Shown: positions 2,230-8,310 of the stretch, piece after piece | Position numbering within the stretch: position 1 is the stretch's first letter | How the letters are laid out: each line of letters opens with the position of its first letter | Source: Acidobacteriota bacterium | GTDB lineage: Bacteria > Acidobacteriota > Terriglobia > Bryobacterales > Bryobacteraceae | Assembly (NCBI GenBank): GCA_016870915.1 | Contig: VFZY01000013.1 | Span: 1-50,168 of the forward strand | Direction of reading: 5' to 3' | Length of the DNA: 50,168 nt | The notes under the pieces: model-generated | Told to the model about the DNA's origin: nothing | Seen by the model: only the letters and a program-made list of their open reading frames with translations | Database searches by the model: none | Program-made: the position numbers and the translations under genes

Positions 2230-3234
2230 CTATTGGCTGCGGCTTCCGCCGGCGCTCTCACCGCCCGCCCGGCCGCCGCCGCCATCGCCGCCGCGCGGCG
2301 CCGCCACCGGCGCCGAGGATGCTGCCGCGGGGCCCGAAACCGAAGGCGCCGAAGAGACGTAGCCCGCGTCGCTGCGCGAAGTGACCGTGTTGTATCCGTA
2401 ACTGGGGTTGTAGCTGGTGCTGAAGCCCCGCTGGTCGCCCACCCAGCCGCCCGCGTAGATCATCGGCCGCTCATAGATCCGCATCACCGAACGAGGCGAA
2501 TACCACCGGTACCCGAACGGGCTCAAGAACACGCCGTTCATCGGAACAAACGTATACATGCCAAAGTAGGGGTTCCAGAACCAGGTGGAGGAGCGAATCG
2601 CGTAGCCGCTGTTGTACATGGACCGCGATGCCGAGATGTTCGCCATGCTGATATAGGATGCCCGGCGCCGCGCCCACCGGAACAGCGGATCGCCTGTCTC
2701 CGGATCGAACTTCACCAGCGCCCGGCTGCCGTCAAACGCCAGCATCCTGCCCGCCTTCACCGGAATGGGGGCGGAGCCTTCGAAGGTTACAAGCGCCTCG
2801 CCGCCGTGCACCTTCAACAGTCCGGCCTCAACTTCCAGGCGATAGATGCCGGTCTTGCGCACGGCGATCAGGCCATCCTTCATCCGGAACCGGATGTTGT
2901 ATTCCTTGGTGGACTCACCGGTCTCAACCACCGCCGAGCCCTTCACCATCTCGATGTCGATGCTGCCGAACTCCCCGTTGTGCAGGCGCATGGCGCTTTC
3001 TTCGCCCAGCCGGAGGAACGAACCCGGCGCCAGCAGCACTTCCACCCGGCCTTCGCCCGTGGCCAGCGTGTCGCCCTTGGCCATGATGGGAATCTTGCCC
3101 ATCTTCCGCTCGGCGGAGAGGCCGTTTAGGGTCACCTCGCCCTCGGTGTAGTGGACCACCCCGGCGCGGGCCGGTGTCGTATCCTGGGCCAGGGCGGCCG
3201 TTGAGAGTAGAACCGCGGTGTAAACAATGCGCAT
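2230..3234 (-). CDS. Exported FecR-domain protein
   Basis: A 334-residue protein with a short Sec signal peptide (VYTAVLLSTAALAQ, cleavage near residue 16). Residues ~25-150 resemble the FecR domain: a TEGEV start, then GDTLATGEGRVEVLLAPGSF and EMVKGSAVVETG. FecR domains outside iron signalling are common in exported acidobacterial proteins, where the role is unclear. No membrane helix is seen after the signal. The C-terminal ~150 residues are Tyr/Ser/Gly-rich, ending in low-complexity Gly-Ala sequence, so a cell-surface or periplasmic role is likely. No sigma factor or TonB gene is adjacent, which argues against classical FecR anti-sigma function. It is divergent from the BON gene at 3383. 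Confidence 0.75.
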   Translation of the reverse strand: MRIVYTAVLLSTAALAQDTTPARAGVVHYTEGEVTLNGLSAERKMGKIPIMAKGDTLATGEGRVEVLLAPGSFLRLGEESAMRLHNGEFGSIDIEMVKGSAVVETGESTKEYNIRFRMKDGLIAVRKTGIYRLEVEAGLLKVHGGEALVTFEGSAPIPVKAGRMLAFDGSRALVKFDPETGDPLFRWARRRASYISMANISASRSMYNSGYAIRSSTWFWNPYFGMYTFVPMNGVFLSPFGYRWYSPRSVMRIYERPMIYAGGWVGDQRGFSTSYNPSYGYNTVTSRSDAGYVSSAPSVSGPAAASSAPVAAPRGGDGGGGRAGGESAGGSRSQ

Positions 3235-3382: not shown

Positions 3383-3919
3383 ATGAAAACTCTCACTCTC
3401 TCCCTCATGATGGCAGCCGGAGCCATGGCGGCTCAAGGACAGGGCCCCGGGCCGCAGGGACAGGCCAGGCTGGTCAAAATGGTGACCCACGAACTCCTGA
3501 TGCTGCCCTTTTATGGTGTGTTCGACAACCTGTCGTTTTCGCTCGATGGCTACAGCGTCACGCTCAAGGGGCAGGTCACCCGGCCCACCCTGAAAAGCGA
3601 TGCCGAAAACGTGGTGAAGAAGATCGAAGGCGTTGAACGCGTCGTCAACCAGATTGAGGTGCTGCCGCTGTCGAACCAGGACAACCAGATCCGCCTGGCC
3701 ACGGCACGGGCCATCTTCGGCCACCCGTCCCTCAACCAGTACTCGCTGCGGGCCGTGCCGCCCATCCACATCATTGTGAAGAACGGCCACGTCACCCTGG
3801 AGGGCGTCGTGCTGAATGAAGGCGACCGGACCATTGCCGGCATTCAGGCCAACGGCGTCAGCGGGGTCTTTTCCGTCACCAACAATCTGCGATTTGAGGT
3901 CCCCTCGAAGCGGAAGTAG
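3383..3919 (+). CDS. Exported double-BON-domain protein
   Basis: A 178-residue protein with a signal peptide (MKTLTLSLMMAAGAMAAQ). It has two BON-like modules: about residues 50-100 (FSLDGYSVTLKGQV ... GVERVVNQIEVLP) and 125-172 (IHIIVKNGHVTLEGVV ... VTNNLRF). BON domains bind phospholipid surfaces in OsmY-like periplasmic proteins. I chose the ATG at 3383 because GGAGG lies eight bases upstream and a signal peptide follows directly; upstream in-frame starts add about 50 implausible residues that overlap the divergent gene. A role in envelope stress is inference. Confidence 0.85.
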   Translation: MKTLTLSLMMAAGAMAAQGQGPGPQGQARLVKMVTHELLMLPFYGVFDNLSFSLDGYSVTLKGQVTRPTLKSDAENVVKKIEGVERVVNQIEVLPLSNQDNQIRLATARAIFGHPSLNQYSLRAVPPIHIIVKNGHVTLEGVVLNEGDRTIAGIQANGVSGVFSVTNNLRFEVPSKRK

Positions 3920-3920
3920 C

Positions 3921-5021
3921 TCAGTCCACGCCGTTGTCACGCAGACGCGTAATCTCTTCGGGCTGAAGCGTCCGGAAGCCTGACGCCTTCAACCGTTCCA
4001 GGTACGCGCCATCCACGCCGTGCGTGGAAAGCGTCACCAGATCGCCGGCGTTGAACTCATGGCCCAATGCGCGGGCCCGCCGCAGCAGGTCCTGGGAAAC
4101 GCCATGGTTCTGCAGCGTCACCAGATCATCGGTCGAAAACTTGTACCCGGCCGCGGCGGCCGCCTTCACGTAATCCGCCTGGATGCCATGCTGGTGCAGA
4201 CGGACCAGGTCGCCCGGTTCGGCGGGAACACCGGCGGCGATCATCTCCCGAACCGTTTCCATGGACACGCCCTGCTGGTGCAGTTGAATGGCGTCCTCCA
4301 CGCTGGCCGCCAGCCCGGCCTTCCTCAGGTCGGCAAGCGACCGCGCTGGCACGCCATGGTTGTGAAGGGACACCATTTCTTCCAGCCGCGGCGTAAAGCC
4401 CGCGCCGCGCAGGTCGCGAATGTAGCGGGCGTCCACGCCCTGGTCCACCAGCGACGCCAGTTCGTCCGCTTGAACGGACTCGATGCCCGCCTCCTGCACC
4501 GCCTGCAGCAACTCCGGAGAAACGCCGCGGCCGGAGAGCATCAGCAGTTGGTCGAAGGACGCATGCACACCCGCCTTGTTCATGGCCCGGGCGAAGTCCA
4601 GCGAGAGCCCTTCCATGAAAGCGCGCATCAGCGCATGCTGCTCCGGCACGCCAAAGCCCAGACGGGCAATCTCATCGGCAAAGGCCGTGTTCGGTTCAAA
4701 GGTGAACTCGCCGGAGCCATTGCCAAAGCGCAGATGCCCGCGGCAGAGAAGCTTGCCCGCATCCCGCACGTAGGCGAACCTGATATCCTCCCGCAGGCCC
4801 GATAGCGTCTCCGCCGTCAGCCCCTCGAACCGGCTGAGCGGCACGTCATTCGACATGCGGGAACGCTGAAACTGGTCCACCACGTTCACGGTGAGCCGCA
4901 CATGGCCGGCCTGCTTGGACCGGTCAATCCGCCATCCGCTGTCGAAAACCAGGTTCTGGGCGTTGAGCAGGAAGAACGCGGCGGTGGCGCCGGCAATGAT
5001 GTAGAGTTCAGTGCTACGCAT
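3921..5021 (-). CDS. Membrane-anchored HGV-repeat protein, partner of the M56 receptor
   Basis: A 366-residue protein with one N-terminal hydrophobic helix (residues ~7-20), a ~120-residue non-repetitive domain, then at least seven tandem units of about 28 residues from ~residue 155 to the end. The unit pattern is DLVxLxxHGVxxxxLxxLRxAG with 5-7 linker residues, probably a helical hairpin solenoid. Examples are DLVRLHQHGIQADYV and DLVTLQNHGVSQDLL. The same repeat makes up the C-terminus of the gene just upstream, whose stop is 12 bp from this start. This suggests the two proteins interact or sense the same ligand. No catalytic motif was found. The repeat resembles segments seen beside BlaR1-like peptidases in related bacteria, with no function I can name. 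Confidence 0.7.
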   Translation of the reverse strand: MRSTELYIIAGATAAFFLLNAQNLVFDSGWRIDRSKQAGHVRLTVNVVDQFQRSRMSNDVPLSRFEGLTAETLSGLREDIRFAYVRDAGKLLCRGHLRFGNGSGEFTFEPNTAFADEIARLGFGVPEQHALMRAFMEGLSLDFARAMNKAGVHASFDQLLMLSGRGVSPELLQAVQEAGIESVQADELASLVDQGVDARYIRDLRGAGFTPRLEEMVSLHNHGVPARSLADLRKAGLAASVEDAIQLHQQGVSMETVREMIAAGVPAEPGDLVRLHQHGIQADYVKAAAAAGYKFSTDDLVTLQNHGVSQDLLRRARALGHEFNAGDLVTLSTHGVDGAYLERLKASGFRTLQPEEITRLRDNGVD

Positions 5022-5033
5022 GGACAGGTTCCT

Positions 5034-6086
5034 TTAGATCACTCCGGCATTCTTGAGTTTGAGAATCGTTTCGAAGGTGACGCGCGGACCCAGTTTGAAG
5101 GCCTCGCGCACGTTGTCCGGGTTCACGCCATGGTTGTGCGCCCTGATGGCATCCTCCACGCTCAGCCCGGCAAGTCCGGCATCCCGTAGAGACTTCACAT
5201 AGGCCGGACGCACACCCTGCTGCTGCATCTGGACGATGGCATTCGCGGGGAGATTCGCCAGACCGCTCTCCTTCAGTTCCCTGAGGAACCCGGCATCCAC
5301 GCCGTGCTGGCGCAGCCGGATCACCTCATCCACGGCAAGGTCCTTCAGACCCGAATCCACCAGCGCGGCAAGGAAGCTGTTTCGAAGCGCAGGCTTTGGC
5401 TCCGGCGCGGGCGCGGGAACCGGTGCCGGCGCGGGCTTCCTCGCAGGGGCCGGAGCCGCGGCGGGCGCAGGGAGCGCTGCCGGAGCCTGGCTGACGGAGG
5501 AAGCTGCCGGCGCGGGCGCCCTCTGCGCCGCCCACCCGAACACAGGAGGATACAGGACAGCTGCCAGCGTCAGACCGGCCAGCAGCGGCAGAACCGCCGC
5601 CAGCCGCCAGACCGATACCCGTGGACGCGACGCCAACGTGGCCGCGGCCAGACGCTCAACGCGCAGCCTGAGCTGTGACTTCCGCTCAGCAATGCCCGAC
5701 GCCATCAACAGGCCGCGATGCTCCAGCCGCAGTTCCGCCACCCGCGCCAGGGCAGCCATGTACCGTCGGGCCGAGCCGGAGGCGGAAACCACCCAGTCAT
5801 CACAGGCCAGTTCCCGCTCCACGTCCAGCCGGCGGGCGATGAAATGCACCAGCGGGTGCGGCCAGCACAACGCCTGCGCCAGACGGGACCCAAGACGCGA
5901 CCAGTCATCGCGCCGCTCAAGGTGGGCAATCTCGTGAATCAGCACCAGGTCCAGCGCCGGCGGCTCCAGTTCACTCAGCAGCCGCGTGGGCACAATCACC
6001 ACCGGCCGCAGAAACCCCGCGGCCATCGGAGACTCCACCAGATCCGTGTGGAGCAGCCGAATCGGGCGCTCCGCCGAAAGATGCAC
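5034..6086 (-). CDS. M56 (BlaR1/MecR1-type) peptidase, C-terminal part after an in-frame TGA
   Basis: The catalytic half of a BlaR1-like receptor. It contains the zinc-binding HEIAHLERRDDW (HExxH) and the downstream ERELACDDWV segment typical of M56, where the Glu is the third ligand. A membrane helix follows (LAAVLPLLAGLTLAAVLYPPV), then an Ala/Pro-rich linker of ~60 residues, then four HGV repeats like those of the next gene. The first possible start (GTG, 6084-6086) lies inside the conserved domain. The same frame runs unbroken from 6554 except for TGA at 6102-6104, so this is the second half of one gene (about 506 residues if read through). In BlaR1 systems ligand binding activates the protease, which inactivates the BlaI repressor; here the repeats would replace the penicillin sensor (inference). 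Confidence 0.8.
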   Translation of the reverse strand: MHLSAERPIRLLHTDLVESPMAAGFLRPVVIVPTRLLSELEPPALDLVLIHEIAHLERRDDWSRLGSRLAQALCWPHPLVHFIARRLDVERELACDDWVVSASGSARRYMAALARVAELRLEHRGLLMASGIAERKSQLRLRVERLAAATLASRPRVSVWRLAAVLPLLAGLTLAAVLYPPVFGWAAQRAPAPAASSVSQAPAALPAPAAAPAPARKPAPAPVPAPAPEPKPALRNSFLAALVDSGLKDLAVDEVIRLRQHGVDAGFLRELKESGLANLPANAIVQMQQQGVRPAYVKSLRDAGLAGLSVEDAIRAHNHGVNPDNVREAFKLGPRVTFETILKLKNAGVI

Positions 6087-6101
6087 CAGCCTCTCCCGGA
6101 A

Positions 6102-6554
6102 TCACCGGGCCAGGGGTTCGGCGACTGGAACACAGGATCGCTTCAAACGGCGCAGGGCGCGCCAGCCGCCGAACAGAACCAGCAGCCGCCAAAGCGCCAC
6201 CACCGCCCACACCGCGGCGCCCAGCATCGCCCAACGCCCCGGGGCCAGCAGCATGCGCCGCGAACGGTCGCCGCCCGGCGCCGGCGCTGCCGGCGGGGCG
6301 TCAACAGAACTGGCCACCGGGCCCAGGTCCAGATCGCTCATCGAAGCCGCATGCTCCCTGCCACCGTCCTCTCGCGGCATGGGCAGCAACAGAAGCAGCA
6401 CGGCGGCCAGCGTCAGCCACCAGAGACTATGGCGCGTCGCGGCATTCAGGCCGGGCACCAGACGCGCCGCCAGCCAGACGCAGGCCGTCAGCAGCAGCGC
6501 CGGCAACAGGCCGTTTAAAACGGCCAGCCAAAGCGTTTCAACGGCATCGGACAT
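6102..6554 (-). CDS. M56 (BlaR1/MecR1-type) receptor, N-terminal membrane part ending at TGA
   Basis: A 150-residue product holding three hydrophobic helices (LLPALLLTACVWLAARLV, HSLWWLTLAAVLLLLL, AMLGAAVWAVVALWRLLVLF), matching the N-terminal membrane region of M56 receptors. It stops at TGA (6102-6104) after VPVAEPLAR; the next codons in the same frame continue the family pattern without loss. I chose the ATG at 6554 because GGAGG lies eight bases upstream; a GTG at 6569 is possible. It begins 17 bp after the BlaI-type gene. On its own it has no catalytic residues. The TGA may be a nonsense mutation, a sequencing error or, less likely, a readthrough site. Confidence 0.75.
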   Translation of the reverse strand: MSDAVETLWLAVLNGLLPALLLTACVWLAARLVPGLNAATRHSLWWLTLAAVLLLLLPMPREDGGREHAASMSDLDLGPVASSVDAPPAAPAPGGDRSRRMLLAPGRWAMLGAAVWAVVALWRLLVLFGGWRALRRLKRSCVPVAEPLAR

Positions 6555-6571
6555 GTTCCGCACCTCCACGG

Positions 6572-6949
6572 CTATCGTGACTCCCCGACAATCTGGCGGA
6601 TGCGCCGCAACTCGCGCTCGCTCAGGTCCTCGTCTTCCAGCAGATTCATCACCAGCGCCTCGGGCCGCCCTCGGAAGAACCGCTCCACCAGATGGCGCAG
6701 CGCGCTCCGGCTGGCTTGCCCCCGGTCCACCAGCGGGTGATAAACAAACGCCCGCCCTTCCTTGGTGTGGCGAAGGTACCCCTTCTCCTCAAGAATTCGC
6801 ATGGTCGTCAGCACCGTGCTGTAGGCCAGCCCCAGGTCTTTGGGAAGCGACGCGGCAACCTCACCCACGGTGGCCTGGCCATGCTCCCATACGATGTCCA
6901 TCAGGCGAAGTTCCGCCTCGGTGAGGTTGGGCGATTTGGTGCGCGGCAT
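6572..6949 (-). CDS. blaI: BlaI/MecI/CopY-family transcriptional repressor
   Basis: A 125-residue winged-helix protein, the usual length for BlaI. Family hallmarks are LTEAELRLMDIVWEHGQATV, then AYSTVLTTMRILEEKGYL (recognition helix) and EGRAFVYHPLV, followed by a C-terminal dimerisation helix region. The chosen ATG (6949) follows GGAGAGAGG by three bases; a TTG at 6967 is less likely. It is the first gene of a leftward operon with the M56 receptor and the HGV-repeat protein. It probably binds the inverted repeat at 6978-6996 over its own promoter and is inactivated when the receptor fires; the regulon beyond this operon is unknown. Confidence 0.92.
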   Translation of the reverse strand: MPRTKSPNLTEAELRLMDIVWEHGQATVGEVAASLPKDLGLAYSTVLTTMRILEEKGYLRHTKEGRAFVYHPLVDRGQASRSALRHLVERFFRGRPEALVMNLLEDEDLSERELRRIRQIVGESR

Positions 6950-6977
6950 AGGCCTCTCTCCAAGCAACGAAAGAATT

Positions 6978-7023
6978 AATAGTTACGTAGACTATTGTAC
7001 TCCGGTTCGCACGAACTTGTCAA
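6978..7023 (-). promoter_or_regulatory. Sigma-70-type promoter with overlapping BlaI-type operator
   Basis: Read leftward, TTGACA (7018-7023) and TACAAT (6994-6999) are separated by 18 bases, a near-consensus promoter for the blaI operon. The inverted repeat AATAGT-N7-ACTATT (6978-6996) overlaps the -10 box and start site, as expected for autorepression. Another palindrome, GTTCG-N2-CGAAC (7005-7016), lies in the spacer. The 11-mer AATTAATAGTT occurs at 6974-6984 and again at 7030-7040, just before the divergent gene at 7063, so that gene may be co-regulated. Confidence 0.75.
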
Positions 7024-7062
7024 CGAAAAAATTAATAGTTCGCGGCTGGTATCCTGGCTCAC

Positions 7063-8310
7063 ATGACACGCAGGCAGTTTCTAGCCGGAGCCGGAGCCTC
7101 CCTTTTCCCGGCATCCCTTGAGCGTCTGGCGGCGGCGCAGCGCGGCAAGGTGAAGATCACCGACGTGAAGTGCATGATCGTGCGCGGCACCTGGGATTGG
7201 AACCTCATCCGGATTGAGACCGACAGCGGCCTGTACGGCCTGGGCGAGGCGTACTGGGGATATGGCGTCAAGGATCTGGTGGTCAACCATTTGAAGCAGG
7301 TGGTGGTGGGCGAGGATCCCATGAACGTGGACAGGCTCTACACCAAGATGCTGATGCGCAGTGCGGGCCAGGGCGCGATTGCCGGCGTCACCATGACTGC
7401 CGCCAGCGGCATCGAGATCGCCCTCTGGGATCTGGTGGGCCGCATCCTCAATACACCGGTCTGCAACCTGCTGGGCGGCCGTTTTCGCGACCGGGTGCGT
7501 TTCTACCGGACCATGCAGGTGCTCGCCCGCGTCAATGACCCGCACTCCTGGCGCGATATGGTGCGCGCGGCCAGGGCGGAGAAGTTCGGCTGGACCGCGT
7601 TCAAGTTCCAGGGCGACGGCGTGCCCCCCGCCGCCGACCCGCAGTACCGCGAACCCGGCCATGACCCCTACGGCCGCGCGCTCACCCACAAGGACTACAA
7701 ACGCATCGTCGACGGCATGACCGTGATCCGCGAGGAACTGGGCTGGGAAGCCGACTTCGGCATCGAAGCTCACTGGAAGTACGACACCCGTGACGTCATC
7801 CGGCTGTGCCGCGAACTGGAACCGGTGAAGCCGATGTGGATCGAGGACCCGGTGCCGCCCGACAACCCCGAAGCCATGGCGCGGGTGACACACGCCGTCG
7901 ACATCCCCGTCTGCACCGGTGAGAACCTCTACGGACGGCACGGCTTCCGGCGTCTGATTGAACTGCAGGCCTGTGACGTGGTTCACATCGACATTCCGAA
8001 ATCGGGCGGGCTGCTTGAAGCCAAACGGATCGCCGACCACGCGGACATGTACTACATCTGGACCGCGGCCCACAATCCGGCCAGCCCCATCGGAACCATC
8101 GCTTCGGCGCACGCCTGCTCCGCCATGCGCGACTTCAGGATCCACGAACTGGCCAAGTACATCGACTGGTGGGAAAACCTGGTGGTCCACGACGGACCCA
8201 TCATCAAGGATGGCTATTTCACCATCCAGGACAAGCCGGGGCTGGGCGTCGAGATCAATCCCGACGTGGCCCGGGCACACCTGGCGCCGGGCGAGACGTG
8301 GTGGGGATAA
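7063..8310 (+). CDS. Exported enolase-superfamily (mandelate racemase/sugar acid dehydratase-like) protein
   Basis: A 415-residue protein with a Tat-like signal (MTRRQFLAGAGASLFP). It has the enolase-superfamily layout: an N-terminal capping domain, then a TIM barrel. Probable metal ligands are D231 (EADFGIEAH), E261 (MWIEDPVPP) and E287 (CTGEN). K181 (FKFQ) is near the usual base position and H337 (AAHNP) is the likely acid/base on the other face. The set resembles galactonate/mannonate dehydratase relatives more than muconate cycloisomerases. Export is unusual for this superfamily, although Tat-signalled members are frequent in Acidobacteriota and Planctomycetota. It is followed after 12 bp by a SIS-domain gene, so a sugar-catabolic role fits. 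The exact substrate is unknown. Confidence 0.85.
   Translation: MTRRQFLAGAGASLFPASLERLAAAQRGKVKITDVKCMIVRGTWDWNLIRIETDSGLYGLGEAYWGYGVKDLVVNHLKQVVVGEDPMNVDRLYTKMLMRSAGQGAIAGVTMTAASGIEIALWDLVGRILNTPVCNLLGGRFRDRVRFYRTMQVLARVNDPHSWRDMVRAARAEKFGWTAFKFQGDGVPPAADPQYREPGHDPYGRALTHKDYKRIVDGMTVIREELGWEADFGIEAHWKYDTRDVIRLCRELEPVKPMWIEDPVPPDNPEAMARVTHAVDIPVCTGENLYGRHGFRRLIELQACDVVHIDIPKSGGLLEAKRIADHADMYYIWTAAHNPASPIGTIASAHACSAMRDFRIHELAKYIDWWENLVVHDGPIIKDGYFTIQDKPGLGVEINPDVARAHLAPGETWWG

Follow-up and report, generated by a model that had tools for sequence, protein, structure and literature searches.

The window, that is, the whole 50,168-nucleotide stretch of Acidobacteriota DNA analysed here (contig VFZY01000013.1 of assembly GCA_016870915.1), carries on its minus strand, from position 6949 to 3921, an operon of three genes that encode a BlaI-type repressor (BlaI), a BlaR1-like M56 metalloprotease (the receptor, M56-HGV) and a partner protein (beta-HGV), the later two starting a few bases from the preceding gene. 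A unit of 28-29 residues, comprising two helices and an HGV-like turn (the HGV repeat), is common to the receptor and the partner. In our judgement there is an even chance that this triplet is a proteolytic switch of the BlaR1/BlaI type whose solenoid sensor is split between the two repeat-bearing proteins. M56/BlaI switches are familiar mainly from resistance to beta-lactams, and the triplet would represent a class of such switches, present in many soil bacteria, in which an uncurated repeat sensor is combined with a matched partner and in which the pair may sense a signal jointly.

Gene set and shared repeat

The repressor was assigned by profile and structure matches (Table 1). The Pfam model Peptidase_M56 (94.5 bits against a cut-off of 31; the HExxH motif is HEIAH in the window) matched both halves of the receptor frame, which is divided by one in-frame stop codon (E 0.011 for 6105-6569 and E 8.8e-27 for 5037-6086). 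No Pfam match to a class-D beta-lactamase-like penicillin-binding domain was found in the M56 protein; its C-terminus consists of HGV repeats, with about four HGV-type motifs that are 29, 29 and 28 residues apart and of which the final one is a half unit. The partner contains about 8-9 units. When the product of 3921-5021 was searched against its own genome, the M56 C-terminus was recovered (E 6.9e-11, 34% identity, query residues 171-275), and the sharing of the repeat is therefore not due to chance. These results bear out the preliminary description of the locus, which reported a BlaI-M56 operon with a shared repeat, in about four copies in the receptor and at least seven in its neighbour. 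One point has to be corrected: the open reading frame (ORF) 5034-6086, taken there for the full M56 product, lacks the N-terminal part, and the gene is the frame from 6569 to 5034 with a TGA at 6102-6104. The partner had also been called membrane-anchored; an N-terminal hydrophobic segment is indeed present, and whether it is an anchor or a signal peptide is uncertain. Such a segment was found in 85 of 85 paired partners by a crude hydropathy test run without a control, and beta-HGV is probably exported.

The AlphaFold model of beta-HGV (predicted local distance difference test, pLDDT, 92.3; predicted template modelling score, pTM, 0.78) has a small beta domain (residues 27-110) followed, beginning at residue 128, by 17 helices, and the repeats are confidently predicted to form an alpha solenoid, as had been proposed. 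In Pfam and NCBIfam scans the window protein gave sub-cut-off matches only, leaving the repeat without a credible curated model or known domain, and no credible function for beta-HGV was found in Pfam, NCBIfam, PHROGs and PADLOC scans. Among the listed matches of 58 family members to curated models, only scattered unrelated ones (LytB, Nif11 leader) were seen. The LytB matches in Pfam (40 of 58 members, best E 1.8e-9) and those to IspH in NCBIfam were judged to be sums over short repeat pieces, a judgement for which per-member stretches and cut-offs were seen for the window protein only. DotG/IcmE was set aside on the same grounds, both for the window protein (E 0.0019, 16.4 bits against a cut-off of 750) and for the M56 profile (E 3.6e-7, no single stretch passing). 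A half-repeat ending failed as a general rule, being found with a simple end pattern in 31 of 85 M56 proteins and 58 of 85 partners. Neither M56 proteins with HGV repeats nor triplets of this kind were the subject of any paper returned by a literature search, whose coverage did not extend to subscription papers.

Conservation of the triplet

Loci from related genomes were typed with gene profiles built in this analysis. In a draw of relatives, the partner was matched (E<=1e-5) in 6 of 81 genomes, the source genome included. In a draw across the phylum Acidobacteriota, the partner profile was matched (E<=1e-8) in 49 of 297 genomes and 30 of 169 genera; at most eight candidates were scored per genome, so that copy numbers are lower bounds. 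The resulting Acidobacteriota set comprises 58 loci including the window, in 50 of which beta-HGV is a gene of its own (next to M56-HGV in 21, solo in 28 and at a contig edge in 1), and two further loci are fusions. Of its 24 M56-HGV genes, 21 have the partner and 20 also BlaI according to a distance rule, which the split M56 of the window fails. A scan of named genomes with a pattern derived from beta-HGV found 129 relatives, 80 of which were kept: M56-HGV lies directly upstream in 64 (59 also with BlaI), contig edges truncate 6, and the remaining 10 are solo. Some loci belong to both sets (L174 is L016 and L179 is L017, for example), and each set includes close relatives, so locus counts should not be read as independent events. 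The gap between the M56 and partner genes ranges from -147 to +210 bp and is at least -22 in 83 of 85 pairs. ORFs with at least three units amounted to 50 beta, 23 M56, 2 fusions and 3 other in the Acidobacteriota set and to 82 beta, 64 M56, no fusions and 4 other in the named-genome set, the others being mostly cut by contig ends.

Going by their labels, 67 of the 80 named loci belong to Acidobacteriota. Triplets were also found in five Myxococcus or Pyxidicoccus isolates (L133, L134, L143, L150 and L163), which makes the signal directly testable, and in records labelled Eisenbacteria (L175), Rhodothermia (L127, L131), proteobacterium (L176) and Comamonas (L169); two Gemmatimonadota records have beta-HGV only (L167 solo, L180 near a contig edge). 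Within the phylum of Myxococcus, matches were obtained in 42 of 117 genomes, and in 36 of these 42, by the positions listed, both kinds of match fall within about 2 kb; in one the partner lies at a contig end. Pairing holds for 29 of the 30 best loci of this phylum, and in 22 the short sequence fetched includes the M56 profile match.

Since solo beta-HGV genes are common, the partner seems also to have a role independent of M56. In one bacterial family (L063, L064, L066-L069, L071-L075, L077, L078, L080, L081 and L084), each genome has a single beta-HGV match and no M56-HGV match at E<=1e-8, and an M56-free role of the protein seems likely there. In the source genome itself, contig 66 (L019 6901-7665) carries a solo beta-HGV paralogue, M56 being absent from the stretch fetched.

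Natural fusions and matching of receptor and partner repeats

Natural fusions provide the strongest hint that M56-HGV and beta-HGV function as a single receptor. Two genomes (G133 and G194; loci L060 and L061) have a BlaI gene followed by one chain composed of M56, the beta domain and 8 repeats, and every HGV match at E<=1e-8 in these genomes falls within the fusion gene.

The repeats of true partners are alike in register, more so than those of mismatched pairs. This was found for 79 of 85 pairs (those with at least three units on each side) by comparing repeat profiles over all M56 x beta combinations with double centring. When the M56 proteins were less than 45% identical (25 pairs), the true partner reached a mean percentile of 0.853 and was the best of all in 7, and 0 of 5000 permutations attained the observed value; below 60% identity (44 pairs), the percentile was 0.749 and the true partner was best in 6. 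A column-scrambled control that kept composition (200 runs) gave 0.009 +/- 0.019 with a maximum of 0.073, compared with the observed 0.209. The pairing signal resides mostly in repeat columns 7, 4, 8 and 25, columns 7 and 8 reading I-H, V-Q or D-H before GV.

Promoter, candidate operators and BlaI

The 113-base gap upstream of BlaI holds a promoter-like sequence and two candidate operator copies, AACTATTAATTCTTTCGTTG and AACTATTAATTTTTTCGTTG (Table 1); an alternative start of the BlaI ORF is a TTG at 6967. At no more than 3 mismatches, the 20-base repeat of the window (the AACTATTAATT repeat) has just two sites in the source genome, both of them here. Among the fetched loci, a dyad ACGAA-N4-TTCGT occurs upstream of 72 of 87 BlaI genes, with at least two copies in 62 of the upstream regions, and was absent from 20 mononucleotide shuffles of each. 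The presence of TTCGTTGACA in 63 of the 87 regions places the dyad over a -35-like box. A search of 11 genomes for strict sites (TACGAA-N4-TTCGTA) found none in 5. Of the nine sites in the remaining 6 genomes, five lie at the triplet, one belongs to a further BlaI-M56 pair and three precede other genes. The operon is thus its own main visible target. The three other strict sites precede genes named by eye as hydrolase-like (L184 4682), TPR-like (L185 4842) and large outer-membrane-receptor-like (L186 4771), and a wider regulon suggested by these sequence matches is possible.

No conserved fourth gene was seen among the neighbouring genes inspected by eye, which contained only lineage-bound neighbours. 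As the strict sites are mostly at the triplet and a conserved fourth gene is missing, the cassette looks mainly self-regulated from its sequence. In Myxococcus loci L133, L134, L150 and L163, a same-strand gene of 870-873 amino acids begins 44-60 bases past the triplet. FtsX-like permease genes are common in Acidobacteriota, and those recognized by eye next to HGV genes in L053, L055, L106, L118 and L166 may be there by chance.

The in-frame stop of the receptor gene

A whole-genome Pfam search scored the M56 frame as a single match containing one TGA (E 5.1e-34); it found one second M56 gene in this genome, on another contig. Past the TGA, a GGAGAGG stretch precedes a GTG at 6086 (window 6086-6104), which could reflect decay, an error or a split receptor made by restart. 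It is quite possible, somewhat short of an even chance, that the window system is decaying or mis-sequenced, so that the TGA truncates the receptor and only BlaI and beta-HGV are whole; this explanation is compatible with all the others considered here. Besides the stop itself, the draft state of the assembly (367 contigs) speaks for it, as does the length of the protein: the HExxH position could be obtained for 86 of 90 repeat-bearing M56 frames, and among those without a contig-end cut the window has the fewest residues before the motif (50; median 216.5), the next-shortest stretch being that of L142 (83), where both BlaI and the N-terminal part of M56 are missing. On the other hand, BlaI, the HEIAH motif, both repeat sets and the TTGACA/TACAAT promoter are intact, and the GGAGAGG ahead of the GTG leaves room for restart and a split receptor.

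Proposed mechanism and alternatives

In the split-sensor switch, for which we infer export, docking, a ligand, BlaI cleavage and the direction of the response, BlaI would repress its own operon, and triggering of the C-terminal part would cause the membrane protease M56-HGV to inactivate BlaI. The two-helix HGV repeats would take the place of the penicillin-binding domain of BlaR1, and the exported beta-HGV would dock on the receptor through its matching repeats and supply the ligand-binding part, namely the beta domain and/or the solenoid surface. The two-protein sensor or solenoid envisaged in the preliminary description gains support from the co-occurrence of the genes in relatives, the fusions and the confidently predicted solenoid, and loses some through the 28 of 50 beta-HGV loci that are solo. 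Neither of the two findings named there as refuting it was made: the scans placed no credible known domain over the repeat, and co-occurrence of the two genes is strong.

Several observations weigh against the split sensor. In addition to the stop codon, the exact dyad is absent in the window and 14 other loci, the window carrying a different repeat. The cleavage site of MecI/BlaI repressors, which we take to be Asn-Phe, aligns with Asn-Leu in the BlaI of the window, and that Asn is conserved in 2 of 88 family members (the window included), 50 having His. Solo genes are common: in the Acidobacteriota set an M56-HGV neighbour is missing at 28 of 50 beta-HGV loci, 16 of them in a single family (f30), and among the named loci it is missing at 10 of 80. 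No partner accompanies three of the M56-HGV genes (L083, L099 and L100), and the partners found for 64 of 64 M56-HGV genes in the named set mean little because those loci were fetched through beta-HGV. In the phylum of Myxococcus, the matches lie far apart or on different contigs in 3 of 42 genomes (G454, G460 and G482), and 2 of 42 have only an M56-length repeat ORF (G397 and G450). The pairing statistics include shared ancestry, which together with gene conversion is a possible cause of the repeat matching, and the window pair is outside the 25.

By analogy with BlaZ, beta-HGV could instead be an effector induced by the switch, one that binds, sequesters or shields a ligand sensed by the ectodomain of M56-HGV. 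This proposal is modelled on the fold shared by beta-lactamase and the BlaR1 sensor, the latter being likened to class-D beta-lactamases in the relevant passage of one paper (PMC7593790). It would agree with the place of beta-HGV as the third gene behind the BlaI promoter, with its occurrence without M56-HGV at 28 of 50 loci, and with the 5 of 9 strict dyad sites that lie at the triplet, compared with 1 at the second BlaI-M56 pair. It would also require two genomes to have fused the effector into the receptor while keeping no other HGV match at E<=1e-8, and beta-HGV has no credible enzyme family match. The fusions are the reason for preferring the co-sensor over the effector, which we regard as rather unlikely, and the solo genes point in the opposite direction.

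The mostly self-directed dyad sites, the lack of a conserved fourth gene by eye and the matched repeats would also suit a homeostasis loop, in which beta-HGV that is free or in the wrong place would itself serve as the signal, the receptor gauging how much of this envelope protein has been exported or assembled. As no conserved envelope partner gene was seen and nothing ties beta-HGV to a structure, such a loop seems very unlikely. A bolder form of the split sensor, to which we would give a small chance, is that the M56 ectodomain and the exported partner build one composite natural alpha/alpha solenoid or ring, resembling designed toroids. Residues at columns 7 and 8 would line up in it as a matched ladder and recognize a periodic ligand, for instance a polymer of the cell wall or surface; the same residues would encode partner identity and thereby allow many insulated BlaI switches.

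Features of the locus and its surroundings

The positions of the genes, motifs and candidate sites are given in Table 1. Divergent from BlaI across the 113-base gap lies an enolase-superfamily (MR_MLE) gene at 7063-8310. The locus of KBS 96 has a divergent gene too (L016 9845-11110), with 31.6% identity to the MR_MLE gene of the window, a comparison of two loci only. A FecR-domain protein (2230-3234) and a BON-domain protein (3392-3919) adjoin the operon.

Table 1. Coordinates of the triplet, its protein features and its candidate control sites in the window
Feature	Position	Strand	Basis
BlaI/MecI-type repressor	6572..6949	minus	Pfam Penicillinase_R E 4e-36; MecI 1okr E 1.2e-12
M56 (BlaR1-like) metalloprotease frame with one in-frame TGA	5034..6569	minus	
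In-frame TGA, splitting M56 into 6102-6569 and 5034-6086	6102..6104	minus	ORF list and translation
Receptor C-terminal HGV repeats (about 3 full units and half units at the ends)	5037..5375	minus	model helices 238-346
beta-HGV partner protein, 366 amino acids	3921..5021	minus	
N-terminal hydrophobic segment of the partner (signal peptide or anchor)	4962..5006	minus	sequence; low pLDDT at residues 1-20
Small beta domain of six strands with conserved RDAG and G.G motifs	4692..4943	minus	alignment; strands between residues 27 and 110
Partner HGV repeats, 17 helices (residues 128-362)	3936..4640	minus	sequence and model
Promoter-like TTGACA-N18-TACAAT of the operon	6994..7023	minus	read from sequence
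Candidate operator copy AACTATTAATTCTTTCGTTG	6965..6984	minus	
Candidate operator copy AACTATTAATTTTTTCGTTG, overlapping the -35 box	7021..7040	minus	

Comparison with known systems

The structure models were computed with 57 of the 82 rows available for the partner and 39 of the 64 for the M56 protein. A Foldseek search of beta-HGV against the PDB returned two entries with E below 0.01, 8v2d (E 4.9e-4) and 5byo (E 1.4e-3), the next match having E 0.23. Both are designed proteins (a nanocage component and a left-handed alpha/alpha toroid, respectively) built of two-helix repeats like HGV; they are not natural ones, and their TM-scores against beta-HGV are 0.19-0.37. Designed circular repeat proteins are described in the passage concerned of one report as having geometries, topologies and a closed architecture unlike any observed in nature (PMC8556268). 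The HGV repeat may be a counterpart, among natural proteins, of helical-repeat designs. Among natural proteins with short helical repeats, TAL effector/BurrH and MTERF4, which are nucleic-acid or ribosome-assembly proteins, gave VIA Z values of about 5-6.5 against the beta-HGV model. These values fall in the range of common helical arrangements, with root-mean-square deviations (rmsd) of 3.5-21 A and no sequence family match. The beta domain, compared within the whole-protein model, gave VIA Z values below 4 and was left unassigned.

The closest known systems are BlaR1/BlaI and MecR1/MecI of Staphylococcus and Bacillus, which have the repressor family, the HExxH M56 protease and a C-terminal sensor part in common with the HGV system. 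The model of the M56 part (5037-6086; pLDDT 82.8, pTM 0.46) is confident in its protease and repeat parts and not in the linker, and its best matches are the cryo-EM structures of Staphylococcus aureus BlaR1 (Z 9.5-10.2), with Z 10.2 and rmsd 3.2 over 130 residues for 8exq; the NCBIfam model blaR1_generic matched the protease part only, at 72 bits against a cut-off of 400. In BlaR1, according to the passage cited above, the M56 protease in the cytosol is switched on by the penicillin-binding domain outside the cell and then degrades BlaI (PMC7593790). The HGV receptor has its repeats where BlaR1 has this domain, and the HGV system differs further in a third conserved gene with the repeats of the receptor and in the loss, across the family, of the presumed cleavage Asn. 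As far as sequence and predicted folds can tell, the HGV triplet works like BlaR1/BlaI, with whose mechanism its gene set, fold and promoter are consistent, but it is not BlaR1 proper, because the penicillin-binding domain is absent and the Asn is not kept.

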